From Pseudomonas frederiksbergensis (GTDB taxonomy: Bacteria; Pseudomonadota; Gammaproteobacteria; Pseudomonadales; Pseudomonadaceae), in the NCBI RefSeq assembly GCF_017114915.1, contig NZ_JAAUOE010000015.1, positions 1 to 64,000 on the forward strand: a stretch of DNA of 64,000 nt, read 5' to 3'. A program made the translations under genes and the position numbers. This document shows, piece after piece, positions 9,810-52,414 of this stretch (within the stretch, counting starts at the first letter, position 1; every line of letters starts with the position of its first letter). The notes under the pieces were generated by a model that was given only the letters and a program-made list of their open reading frames with translations, had not been told where the DNA came from and made no database searches.

Positions 9810-10127
9810 ATGTCTCGTCTTCGTCTGCTCAGCGCTGCCGCCCTGCTTGCCATGGCTGCCAATGCCCACGCCACCAGCTTTATCGTGACCACCGACTCCA
9901 TCGTGGGTGGCCTGAAGGCCTCCTCCGACGCGACTTCGGATGTCTCATCCTCCTTTCGCGACGACAAAATCGTCCGTGCTGCCCGTGACGACGCGGCCAG
10001 CTTCGTTGCCAGTGAAGGTGCCATCCGCGGCGTGAAACTGGAAAGCGCACTCGACCATATCCGCCAACAGGCTCCACAACTGAATGCGACTGACGCACAG
10101 CTGGCCCAGGCCATCCTGACGATCTAA
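9810..10127 (+). CDS. DUF2388 secreted small protein, copy 1
   Basis: A 105-residue protein with a cleavable signal peptide (MSRLRLLSAAALLAMAANAHA). The mature part contains the DUF2388 core 'KIVRAARDDAASFVASEG', then 'IRGVKLESALDHIR' and C-terminal 'AQLAQAILTI'. The start ATG 9810 has AAAGGAG upstream. Annotators sometimes attach the name Holliday junction resolvasome subunit, which nothing in the sequence supports. It is the first of three homologues in a row leading into a DUF4105 gene. Periplasmic location is inferred from the signal peptide; function is unknown. Confidence 0.85.
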   Translation: MSRLRLLSAAALLAMAANAHATSFIVTTDSIVGGLKASSDATSDVSSSFRDDKIVRAARDDAASFVASEGAIRGVKLESALDHIRQQAPQLNATDAQLAQAILTI

Positions 10128-10143
10128 ACAACTGTGCTGAACC

Positions 10144-10164
10144 GGGACACGCCCGTCGTGTCCC
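10144..10164 (+). terminator. Hairpin after DUF2388 copy 1
   Basis: A perfect 8-bp stem GGGACACG/CGTGTCCC with loop CCCGT is followed by ATTGTTT. It may attenuate or terminate transcription between copy 1 and copy 2; the U-tract is weak. Confidence 0.5.
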
Positions 10165-10234
10165 ATTGTTTCGGCGCTGGCTCTAGCCCGGGCATTGCGC
10201 TAGCCTTGGGGCTCGCTTTCAGCTATCGAGCCTC

Positions 10235-10552
10235 ATGCGTTTTCTTTCAAGCCTGTTGATCACTCCGGTTTTTCTCGCGGCCTGCTGGTCGGGTTCGGCC
10301 CATGCCTTCGACGCTTTCAACCTGTCTACACAAGGCACCGTAGCCAGTGGTTACGCCAGCAGCATGGTGACCTCCGCGCCCTTCGACCACAAACGGCTGA
10401 TCGCCGCCCGGGATGACGCTGCAGCGTTCATTGCCAGTGACGGCCAACTGCGAGGCGCGCAACTGGAGTCCGCCTTGATCTACCTACACCGGATCCAGCC
10501 AAAACTTCATGCCAGCGACCTTGAACTGGCGCAGGCAATTCTCGTCCAATAG
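10235..10552 (+). CDS. DUF2388 secreted small protein, copy 2
   Basis: A 105-residue paralogue of the upstream gene. It has a signal peptide (residues 1-24, ending GSAHA) and the conserved core 'RLIAARDDAAAFIASDG', 'LRGAQLESALIYLHR' and 'LELAQAILVQ'. It is the most diverged of the three: it lacks the S/T-rich 'TSDTTSSIRD' segment seen before the core in the others. It lies 28 bp upstream of copy 3 and is probably co-transcribed with it. Function is unknown. Confidence 0.82.
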   Translation: MRFLSSLLITPVFLAACWSGSAHAFDAFNLSTQGTVASGYASSMVTSAPFDHKRLIAARDDAAAFIASDGQLRGAQLESALIYLHRIQPKLHASDLELAQAILVQ

Positions 10553-10580
10553 TTATCCCTTGTTTCTCCGGAGTCATTCC

Positions 10581-10901
10581 ATGCGTAGCCCGCTGATTGC
10601 TGCCACCCTTGGCCTGCTGTTATTGGCCGACGTGGCCCAGGCGCACACCCTGGTAGCCACCAGTAACATCATCATTCGTGCCTCCCAGCGCTCGCTTGAT
10701 TTCACTTCCGATACCACCACGTCCATCCGCGATTCGAAGATCGTCCGTGAAGCCCACGACGATGCGGCCAGTTTCGTCGCCAGCGAGGGTGAAATCCGCG
10801 GTGCACACCTGGAAGCGGCCTTCGACACCTTGCGCACCCGCGTACCGGAAGCCCGCGACGCCAGTGATCAGGTTCTCGCCGAAGCCATCCTCGCACTGTG
10901 A
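10581..10901 (+). CDS. DUF2388 secreted small protein, copy 3
   Basis: A 106-residue protein with a signal peptide (MRSPLIAATLGLLLLADVAQA). The DUF2388 core reads 'KIVREAHDDAASFVASEG', 'IRGAHLEAAFDTLR' and 'VLAEAILAL'. ATG 10581 is preceded by CCGGAG. Its TGA stop overlaps the GTG start of the next gene by four bases (GTGA), so the DUF4105 protein is probably translationally coupled to it. Function is unknown, but the coupling argues for a shared envelope role. Confidence 0.85.
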   Translation: MRSPLIAATLGLLLLADVAQAHTLVATSNIIIRASQRSLDFTSDTTTSIRDSKIVREAHDDAASFVASEGEIRGAHLEAAFDTLRTRVPEARDASDQVLAEAILAL

Positions 10902-12859
10902 AGTCACTAGGCGCCTGGTTGCTGGCCGGGGTTGTGTTGCTGCTTGGCAACACAGCTCAGGCCGGCCTGCAATTACGACTCAAGACCGACGGCCTGAGCC
11001 CCGCGCAACAGCAGGCCAGCCAGGCACTGCTCGATGAAGCCATGCAGGCGTTACCGCCGCGCTTCATCGAGCAACTGGACCGGCGCATCGACGTTGGCTG
11101 GACCGACGACATGCCGAGCGATGCCTACGGCCAGGCGTCGCTGGTGTCCGAGCTCGACCTGAATCGCAAGCTGCTCGCCAGCCTCACCGACGGCAGCGCC
11201 GCGACCCAAAAAACGTATCGCCCCCACGGCACCGTGCGCCGGGAAATGCTCGCCACGGTGCTGCACGAACTCACCCATATTTATGACCGCGCGCACCTGT
11301 GGCCAGACGCCGAGCGCACGCTGATCCAGCGCTGCACGCAACGCAACAGCAGCTCCGGTCCGATCGGCATCCCGGATCAATGCCGCGGGCAGACGGCGCG
11401 ACGCTGGACCCTCAGCGATGACCCTCGCCTGCTGGATCTGGCCGGCTGGCCGCAATACGTCGGTCGGCGCGGTGAACGTGAACAGCACAACCGGCAGATT
11501 GCCCGCAGTCCGGACATCTACGAGACGAGCAGCCCGAAGGAGTTCGTCGCGGTCAACATGGAGTACTTTCTCCTGGACTCAAGCTACGCCTGCCGCCGCC
11601 CTGCACTGTACCGCTACTACAAAGAACACTTCGGCTGGGCACCCGCCGCCAAGGATGCGTGCGCCCAATCATTCGCCTTCCTCAATGCCGGTAACGACTT
11701 CGCCAAGCAACCCTTGGGTCAGGTCGATCCAGAGCGGGTTTACGCCGTCGACTATCTGCTGGCGGAAGCCAACCAGAACTGGGTCAGCCGCTGGGGCCAC
11801 AGCATGCTGCGACTGGTGATCTGCGCACCAGGTCGGCCTCGCGGGCCGGATTGCCGTCTCGATCTGGATCAACATTTGGTGCTGTCCTACCGCGCCTTCG
11901 TCGGTGACGTACAGCTGTCGAGCTGGGATGGGCTGGTGGGCAAATACCCATCGCGTTTGTTTGTCCTGCCGCTGGCCCAGGTGATCGACGAATACACCAA
12001 GACCGAACTGCGCAGCCTGGCCTCAGTGCCGCTGAACCTGTCGCGCAGCGAGATCGAAGACGTGGTGGAGCACGCTGCCGAGATGCACTGGAGTTACGAT
12101 GGCAATTACTTCTTCCTGTCCAACAACTGTGCAGTGGAAAGCCTGAAACTTCTGCGCAGTGGCAGCAATAATGCGCAACTGACAGGGCTCGACAGCATCA
12201 TGCCCAACGGCTTGCTGGAAGTGCTCAAGGGGCGCGGGCTGGCGGACACCAGCGTACTGGATGATCCCCGCGAAGCGTTACGCCTGGGCTATCGCTTCGA
12301 CTCCTTCCGCGAGCGTTATCAAGCGATGTTCGAAGTGCTGAAGAAGCATTTGCCGATCAAGCAAGCAAAGGTTGAAGACTGGCTGGCATTGAAAGCTGAT
12401 GAGCGCCGCAAATGGATTGACCAGGCTGATCTGCGCACCAGCGCGGCATTGCTGTTGCTGGAGCAGGCCAGTTTCCGTCAGCAGATGGTGCTGGCCCAGG
12501 ACGAAGTGAAACAACGCTATCTGGGCGCTCAGGAATTGAACAACGGCAGCATGGATAAGGCCAATGCGACCTTGAAGCAGATTCTCGCCAACAGCGGCTT
12601 CCTCAGCCGCCCGGCCGAACTGCTCGGCACCGGTGGCTACGGTTTGCCGCAGCCGAATGAATGGACACGCCTGGAGTCGGAAAGCAGCCTGCGCCAGAAG
12701 CAGCTTCAAGTGCTGACCGGGGATCTCGATAAAGAAGTCAGAGCCCTGCTCGAACCAAGCCGAGCCGCGGAAATGGCCGCCAATGAAGCCAACCTGAAAC
12801 AGGTTGGCGAACATCTGAGGAAGTTGCACAAGGCAGCGGGCGGATTGGAGTTGCCCTGA
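10898..12859 (+). CDS. Two-domain envelope protein: HELTH metallopeptidase-like domain plus DUF4105
   Basis: A 653-residue exported protein with a signal peptide (about residues 1-22). The N-terminal domain has a zincin motif H123-E124-L-T-H127 and a plausible third ligand, E215 in 'SPKEFVAVNMEYF'. The second domain (about 270-520) fits DUF4105, with H301 in 'RWGHSML' and C411 in 'SNNCAVES' as the candidate Cys/His pair. From memory, DUF4105 includes Lnb-type lipoprotein N-acyltransferases; whether this protein has that activity is inference. The C-terminal third is helical and charged. The GTG start overlaps the DUF2388 stop by four bases. Confidence 0.8.
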   Translation: MKSLGAWLLAGVVLLLGNTAQAGLQLRLKTDGLSPAQQQASQALLDEAMQALPPRFIEQLDRRIDVGWTDDMPSDAYGQASLVSELDLNRKLLASLTDGSAATQKTYRPHGTVRREMLATVLHELTHIYDRAHLWPDAERTLIQRCTQRNSSSGPIGIPDQCRGQTARRWTLSDDPRLLDLAGWPQYVGRRGEREQHNRQIARSPDIYETSSPKEFVAVNMEYFLLDSSYACRRPALYRYYKEHFGWAPAAKDACAQSFAFLNAGNDFAKQPLGQVDPERVYAVDYLLAEANQNWVSRWGHSMLRLVICAPGRPRGPDCRLDLDQHLVLSYRAFVGDVQLSSWDGLVGKYPSRLFVLPLAQVIDEYTKTELRSLASVPLNLSRSEIEDVVEHAAEMHWSYDGNYFFLSNNCAVESLKLLRSGSNNAQLTGLDSIMPNGLLEVLKGRGLADTSVLDDPREALRLGYRFDSFRERYQAMFEVLKKHLPIKQAKVEDWLALKADERRKWIDQADLRTSAALLLLEQASFRQQMVLAQDEVKQRYLGAQELNNGSMDKANATLKQILANSGFLSRPAELLGTGGYGLPQPNEWTRLESESSLRQKQLQVLTGDLDKEVRALLEPSRAAEMAANEANLKQVGEHLRKLHKAAGGLELP

Positions 12860-52257: not shown

Positions 52258-52390
52258 TGAATGGCTGGTGAAGCCCTTCGATGCTCCTATGTTGTGTTAA
52301 GTGTTGGCAGATATCTGGACCCCGCCCTAGCGGTCCGGAACTTGAACCCCGGAACTTCTCCCTCCCCATACGAAGTCCGGGGTTTTTTTT
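52258..52390 (+). ncRNA. ersA: ErsA small regulatory RNA
   Basis: An sRNA of about 133 nt between polA and engB, the location of ErsA in P. aeruginosa and of Spot 42 in enterics. The start is inferred from the AlgU-type promoter just upstream; the end is a strong terminator (ACCCCGGAACTTC / GAAGTCCGGGGT, 52346-52383, then eight T). The terminator loop exposes TCCCTCCCC, a pyrimidine-rich segment suited to pairing with ribosome sites. ErsA links envelope stress to exopolysaccharide and porin expression through Hfq; that role is from the P. aeruginosa work, not from this sequence. Confidence 0.82.
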
Positions 52391-52414
52391 GCCTGCTGAT
52401 TTGTCCGGGGAGCT

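Follow-up and report, generated by a model that had tools for sequence, protein, structure and literature searches.

The subject of this analysis is a cluster of four genes in Pseudomonas frederiksbergensis (RefSeq assembly GCF_017114915.1, contig NZ_JAAUOE010000015.1), of which we examined positions 1 to 64,000 of the forward strand, a stretch of 64,000 nucleotides that we refer to as the window. Between positions 9810 and 12859, three small genes of the DUF2388 family run directly into one large gene, whose product of 653 amino acids (aa) joins a DUF7844 domain to an Lnb_N domain. The features on which the argument rests are listed here, with expectation values given as E, and with the predicted local distance difference test (pLDDT) and predicted template modelling score (pTM) as measures of model quality.

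9810-10127, + strand: DUF2388 protein 1, 105 aa, predicted to be exported (PF09498, E 3e-31; TIGR02448; signal-peptide-like start by eye)
10235-10552, + strand: DUF2388 protein 2, 105 aa, predicted to be exported (PF09498, E 9e-27; TIGR02448)
10581-10901, + strand: DUF2388 protein 3, 106 aa, predicted to be exported, its stop overlapping the start of the enzyme gene (PF09498, E 3e-30; TIGR02448)
10898-10901, + strand: GTGA stop/start overlap, read from the sequence, GTG being the start of the 653-codon gene
10898-12859, + strand: two-domain enzyme DUF7844-Lnb_N, 653 aa, predicted to be exported, with a C-terminal helical part (Pfam; model mean pLDDT 85.7, pTM 0.84)
10970-11656, + strand: DUF7844 gluzincin-like domain, aa 25-253, with H123, E124, H127 and E215 (PF25226, E 5e-117)
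11264-11278, + strand: HELTH motif, H123 to H127
11540-11542, + strand: E215, proposed third zinc ligand, inside the segment aligned to 9srw
11705-12205, + strand: Lnb_N permuted NlpC/P60 domain, aa 270-436 (PF13387, E 1.5e-27; TseH, 6v98, Z 9.0)
11798-11800, + strand: H301, proposed catalytic His
12128-12130, + strand: C411, proposed catalytic Cys, in NNC
12206-12856, + strand: C-terminal helical region, aa 437-653, helices in the model, no Pfam family listed

The proteins of the cluster

All three small proteins far exceed the cut-offs for DUF2388 in Pfam and TIGR02448 in NCBIfam, and the strictly kept core DDAA.F.AS.G..RG..LE.A, which a preliminary description of this DNA had read in three small secreted paralogues, is indeed present as claimed. 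Identity to the first protein is 42% for the second and 46% for the third, and the invariant residues of the family are A62, G70, L77, E78 and A99. By eye, each of the three, and the 653-aa protein as well, begins with a Sec-signal-like N-terminus that carries no lipobox Cys. The other end of the small proteins is also fixed, with 264 of 283 distinct DUF2388 sequences finishing in x-[IVLM]-L-x-x (mostly AIL-x-x), and 13 of the remaining 19 are dispersed copies, which lie away from the cluster. A structure model of DUF2388 reached a mean pLDDT of 69.8, better from about residue 50, and a search of the PDB with it gave no match at E <=0.001 and two at E up to 10; because there is no good match, we have not placed the fold.

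In the case of the large protein, the preliminary description had proposed an exported product of 653 residues combining a HELTH zincin-like domain with a DUF4105 domain, and this architecture is confirmed, the two parts now being named DUF7844 and Lnb_N in current Pfam. The DUF7844 domain carries the gluzincin signature, HExxH and a downstream Glu (H123, E124, H127 and E215), and, judged by its family, this gluzincin-like head suggests peptide cleavage. Pfam M90 matches the protein below its curated cut-off (16.3 bits against 26.2, E 0.0079), and its sequence relatives in the PDB at E <0.01 are 9srw (Mlc titration factor A, E 0.0023) and 3dl1 (E 0.0047), the latter a putative metal-dependent hydrolase that Foldseek also returns at E 0.095 and probability 0.80. 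On the model, which was built with 43 aligned sequences, residues 23-247 resemble gluzincins in structural alignment, with M1 aminopeptidases at Z up to 9.2 and others near 8, a level that the tool warns may be background. Residues 279-473 have TseH (6v98) as their top structural match among the matches listed, with 150 of 183 residues aligned at 11% identity and a root-mean-square deviation of 4.0, the Z score of 9.0 again lying near the tool's background level. The His precedes the Cys (His301, Cys411), as in a permuted papain-like fold, and the Lnb_N family match agrees with this. It is the family assignments and the conservation of residues that carry the argument, and the fold matches are supportive.

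This conservation is complete in the sequences compared. The six residues H123, E124, H127, E215, H301 and C411, singled out in the preliminary description as those to check, show no variation across the 122 full-length sequences, and the same is true of D130, E222, N410 and the cysteines at 232, 255, 309 and 319, which may form disulphides. These 122 sequences represent 121 genes, since one gene (of genome G011) entered twice, at L010 and L015; their identity to the window protein spans 29-96%, with 33 of them below 55%, and the set is dominated by close Pseudomonas relatives, 79 of the 122 coming from named Pseudomonas loci. Of 582 confirmed relatives of the large protein the best 80 were kept, and every one of these named relatives belongs to Pseudomonas, with identities of 85-96%. 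Among 72,556 plasmid records, tblastn matched the large protein in seven, with matches that fall mostly in the Lnb_N part, never cover more than 80% of the query and stay below 60% identity.

Pairing of DUF2388 with DUF7844 across genomes

We searched 611 distinct genomes for both families (274 from the class, 244 from the order and 99 from the family of genome G012, overlaps removed), the last being a different family from Pseudomonadaceae in the same class. Matches to DUF7844 below the curated cut-off (G066, G089, G471 and G505), which look MtfA-like by eye, were excluded from the counts. DUF2388 occurs in 47 of the 611 genomes and DUF7844 over cut-off in 49, there is no genome with DUF2388 and without DUF7844, and each DUF2388 genome has a DUF2388 gene directly upstream of the DUF7844 gene. 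In the family of G012 this arrangement, on the same strand, holds in 37 of 37 genomes, with the domain matches 72-194 bases apart, and the 10 genomes of the order sample that were positive each carry a DUF2388 copy ahead of DUF7844, at a distance of 72-78 bases. The association of DUF2388 with the two-domain protein, known to the preliminary description from this locus, therefore extends beyond the species group to the 37 DUF2388 genomes of another family, and the pairing has been found in these two families, Pseudomonadaceae and that of G012. Fisher tests of co-occurrence gave p values of 1.8e-26 (G012 family), 5.8e-18 (order) and 2.2e-8 (class), in which genomes were treated as independent, although in fact they are not. 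We consider it stronger evidence that in six mixed genera of the G012 family the two genes are jointly present or jointly absent in 16 of 16 genomes.

The spacing of the genes is also conserved. The GTGA overlap of the last small gene with the large one, reported in the preliminary description, is borne out at 10898-10901, and 90 of 90 Pseudomonadaceae loci share a 4-base overlap (80 named loci and 10 further genomes, that of the window included), while 22 of 31 loci in the other family have the first in-frame start of the large gene at that same -4 position; an overlap kept in this way is not a matter of chance. Of the 80 named Pseudomonas loci, 79 have three DUF2388 genes ahead of the large gene, and the 80th shows two and ends at a contig edge. 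The copy number goes further in whole genomes, since in ten Pseudomonadaceae genomes a lone enzyme gene is accompanied by 2-7 DUF2388 genes (the count of seven includes one partial match), and the window's own genome holds five, two of them away from the cluster; positive genomes of the G012 family have a single one. Such a many-to-one ratio is the fan-in expected of substrates.

Two genomes count against a strict partnership. One, G542, has DUF7844 without DUF2388, in an assembly that is 87% complete and in about 520 contigs. The other, G011, bears DUF7844 and has no DUF2388 recognised by Pfam; its partner slot is occupied by a 103-aa open reading frame (L135:491-799) with a signal-peptide-like start, which ends 9 bases before the large gene. 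The DUF2388 profile scores this reading frame at 11.5 bits, the best of 1000 shuffles reaching 8.8, and it shares D48, A49, A54, R60, L64 and D79 (in its own numbering) with seven DUF2388 proteins, making it a probable, highly diverged DUF2388 homologue as far as the sequence tells. With these two genomes weighed, we have very little doubt that DUF2388 proteins are obligate partners of the two-headed enzyme, and the best reading of the locus, from its sequence, is a compact envelope module made up of a putatively exported, soluble two-headed enzyme and its small secreted partners. In the passages searched, drawn for the most part from papers outside subscription journals, no link of DUF2388 to DUF7844 or Lnb_N was found, and neither TIGR02448 nor DUF7844 occurs there.

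Dispersed copies, envelope stress and a parallel pair

The DUF2388 genes that lie away from the enzyme differ from the adjacent ones in their upstream regions. We scanned 150 upstream bases for GAAC, 17-19 bases and TC[TAG]NA, which we take to be the AlgU-type consensus, with expectations obtained by order-1 resampling, and 5 of the 283 distinct sequences, which had no start or fewer than 150 upstream bases, were left out. The pattern occurs in 9 of 14 distinct dispersed genes, in every case at -53 to -62 from the start, where 0.3 would be expected; among adjacent copies it occurs in 7 of 264, at scattered positions, against 4.3 expected. The two dispersed copies of the window's own genome fall on either side of this divide, that at L132:7331-7540 having an AlgU-type promoter at -61 and that at L131:7430-7639 having none.

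The first of these two copies sits, by eye, between a gene for a GspE-like ATPase and gcvP. In Pseudomonas aeruginosa, PA5210 is described as a secretion pathway ATPase and PA5211-PA5212 are given as hypothetical (PMC2771283), and two papers name PA5213 together with gcvP1. PA5212 should be the P. aeruginosa counterpart of the L132 copy, an assignment made by synteny and not by sequence. Inhibiting the transport of lipoproteins by LolCDE raised PA5212 11.4- and 17.2-fold, in a table (Table 1) that also lists algD, lptF, osmC and osmE, and the same gene also shows a response to one or both of meropenem and polymyxin B (PMC7685553). In addition, PP_3743, which is named as DUF2388, was 5-fold up in a racemase mutant of P. 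putida (PMC6034422). Taken together, the AlgU-type promoters and the responses of PA5212 and PP_3743 make the dispersed partners look like envelope-stress genes. A candidate P. aeruginosa cluster at PA3784-PA3788 was dropped, since PA3785 is annotated as a copper chaperone.

A second Lnb_N enzyme in the window's own genome has a comparable neighbour. This protein, of 629 aa, has the architecture DUF7843-Lnb_N-DUF7840, and a small DUF3015 protein is encoded directly upstream of it, the pair occupying L130:6433-8908, which is C1:218432-220907 of the genome. Among 229 genomes of the class, Lnb_N was found in 57 and DUF3015 in 43, and all 43 DUF3015 genomes also have Lnb_N (p 1e-34). Counted by match rows, in which split matches stand as separate rows and from which one DUF3015 row below cut-off (G203:C4) was excluded, 46 of 54 DUF3015 rows lie upstream of an Lnb_N match, on the same strand and within 2 kb. 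The parallel suggests that an Lnb_N enzyme with a small exported partner is a theme that recurs in Gammaproteobacteria. Homology between DUF2388 and DUF3015 is not supported, with hhalign probabilities of 2.2% (local) and 0.3% (global). Neither does every Lnb_N gene have a small partner, a general rule that we rejected: the 71 Lnb_N rows divide into 42 with DUF3015 within 2 kb, 4 of the DUF2388 type, that of G011, and 24 others, and the 17 of these 24 that were inspected have varied neighbours and include short forms and two true Lnb proteins with 5TMH_Lnb. Small lipoprotein-like genes stand upstream of other Lnb_N enzymes at L281:6609-7025 (with a PEGA domain) and L270:4194-4616 (with no Pfam match), and are perhaps further partner types.

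Elsewhere in the window, a Pseudomon-1/ErsA RNA lies at 52281-52398 (Rfam RF01719, 135.9 bits).

Possible roles of the partners and relation to known systems

What, then, might the small proteins do? The relatives of the Lnb_N domain offer a lead, since Lnb attaches acyl groups to lipoproteins, LRAT takes acyl chains from phosphatidylcholine and transfers them, and Tox-Act1 cleaves phosphatidylglycerol and phosphatidylethanolamine (PMC12994826). Our tentative preference is that DUF2388 proteins are substrates which the enzyme would trim and acylate in the periplasm. The zincin head would cut the DUF2388 protein and so expose a new end, the Lnb-type head would take an acyl chain off a membrane phospholipid and attach it to the protein, and the acylated proteins would become anchored in the outer membrane, on demand in envelope stress; both this order of cutting and then lipidating and the acyl chemistry itself are inferred from the activities of the two domain families. 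We lean this way because DUF2388 depends on the enzyme, because there are many partners to one enzyme, because dispersed copies have stress-type promoters and because the small proteins have no lipobox. In its widest form, the idea is of a lipidation that needs no lipobox, in which the new end made by the zinc head would be acylated to give stress-inducible, lipid-anchored peptides, as one of several pairs of a small exported protein and an Lnb_N enzyme, and in that form we think it improbable.

A number of observations weigh against our preferred reading. No Cys or other obvious acyl acceptor is found among the invariant residues of DUF2388, and Foldseek on the enzyme model gave no match at E <=0.001, the fold matches being modest. 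No AlgU-type site lies within 300 bases of the three copies in the window itself, and since close orthologues occur among the 14 dispersed genes, the 9 promoters amount to fewer independent cases. In the parallel family, 8 of 54 DUF3015 rows are not placed within 2 kb upstream of Lnb_N in the way described. Finally, an inhibitor or a folding partner would likewise be expected only beside its enzyme.

An inhibitor or regulator is indeed the main rival, and a folding or presenting subunit comes next. As inhibitors, DUF2388 proteins would restrain the enzyme in the periplasm and shield the cell's own proteins and phospholipids, with the stress-induced dispersed copies raising the dose. This would suit the position of the gene for the small exported protein, immediately ahead of the enzyme gene and coupled to its start in both families, the absence of DUF2388 from enzyme-free genomes among the 611, the AlgU-type promoters, and the example of Tox-Act1, a related domain that is a toxic phospholipase paired with an immunity protein (PMC12994826). 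However, up to seven DUF2388 genes per enzyme seems excessive for the purpose. Moreover, rapid divergence is common among immunity proteins, but the core of DUF2388 is highly conserved, and we judge this explanation to be somewhat unlikely. The second possibility, that the small proteins serve the enzyme in the periplasm as dedicated chaperones that fold it or as presenting subunits that bring substrate to it, and that the true substrate is something else, such as another envelope protein or a lipid, draws on their adjacency and coupled translation, on the one copy per enzyme in the second family and on the small exported DUF3015 protein, for which no kinship was detected, in the corresponding position ahead of a different Lnb_N enzyme. 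Against it stand the stress-type promoters of dispersed copies, which are unlike a dedicated folding helper, and the low identity of the second and third window paralogues to the first (only 42 and 46%), and we regard this role as unlikely. Several paralogues per enzyme and the stress promoters on dispersed copies are what make us lean to a substrate or a regulator.

It could also be argued that the enzyme is an ordinary Lnb lipoprotein N-acyltransferase with an added domain, to whose activity DUF2388 is unrelated. The preliminary description had noted that DUF4105 includes lipoprotein N-acyltransferases with a Cys/His pair, which is correct for the family (PMC12994826), and the Lnb_N domain found here has such a pair. 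It does not carry over to the 653-aa protein, for which neither the C-terminal membrane domain of Lnb, 5TMH_Lnb (PF25221), nor any other membrane-domain family is listed at E up to 1, while Lnb proteins at L277 and L278 are matched by 5TMH_Lnb, and the genome of the window (G000) has a canonical Lnt (TIGR00546 over cut-off, E 1.1e-90). Because no 5TMH_Lnb was found and Lnt is present, we reject the reading of the DUF7844-Lnb_N enzyme as the lipoprotein N-acyltransferase Lnb. In the family of G012, eight of the nine genomes tested gave no Lnt match above the cut-off, and G012 and G165 carry a separate Lnb with 5TMH_Lnb elsewhere in the genome (L277 and L278), near genes that look by eye like ybeY and corC. 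Such surroundings are the usual neighbourhood of lnt, and Lnb may replace Lnt in this proteobacterial family. Those two genomes therefore hold the DUF7844 enzyme alongside a separate protein that is the likely lipoprotein enzyme, and this, together with the near-absolute link to DUF2388, renders an ordinary Lnb highly improbable.

DUF2388 and DUF7844, both families of unknown function, gain a shared context and a tie to a domain family that acts on acyl chains, and the dispersed copies tie the system to AlgU-type envelope stress. An orphan family of small Pseudomonas proteins becomes in this way a testable system of enzyme and partner, and if the partners are acylated, it would represent a bacterial pathway of protein lipidation outside Lgt/Lsp/Lnt.

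Among known systems, TseH and Tox-Act1 share the permuted NlpC/P60 catalytic fold, but they are type VI secretion effectors, whereas the window enzyme has a signal-peptide-like start and, by eye, no secretion-system genes among its neighbours. Lnb of Bacteroides belongs to the same catalytic domain family and has the His and Cys pair; the window enzyme differs in its N-terminal gluzincin-like domain, its DUF2388 partner, the lack of any transmembrane family found and its host, since hosts of Lnb are usually, if not by strict definition, without Lnt and the window genome has it. The DUF3015 pair is alike in that the gene just upstream of an Lnb_N enzyme codes for a small exported protein, and different in its partner family (for which no kinship was found), in its other accessory domains and in having no zincin. 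MtfA and M90, for their part, have HExxH and a downstream Glu in a similar segment and match DUF7844 weakly in sequence and structure; MtfA, however, is a cytoplasmic protein of a single domain, whereas DUF7844 is predicted to be exported and is fused to Lnb_N.

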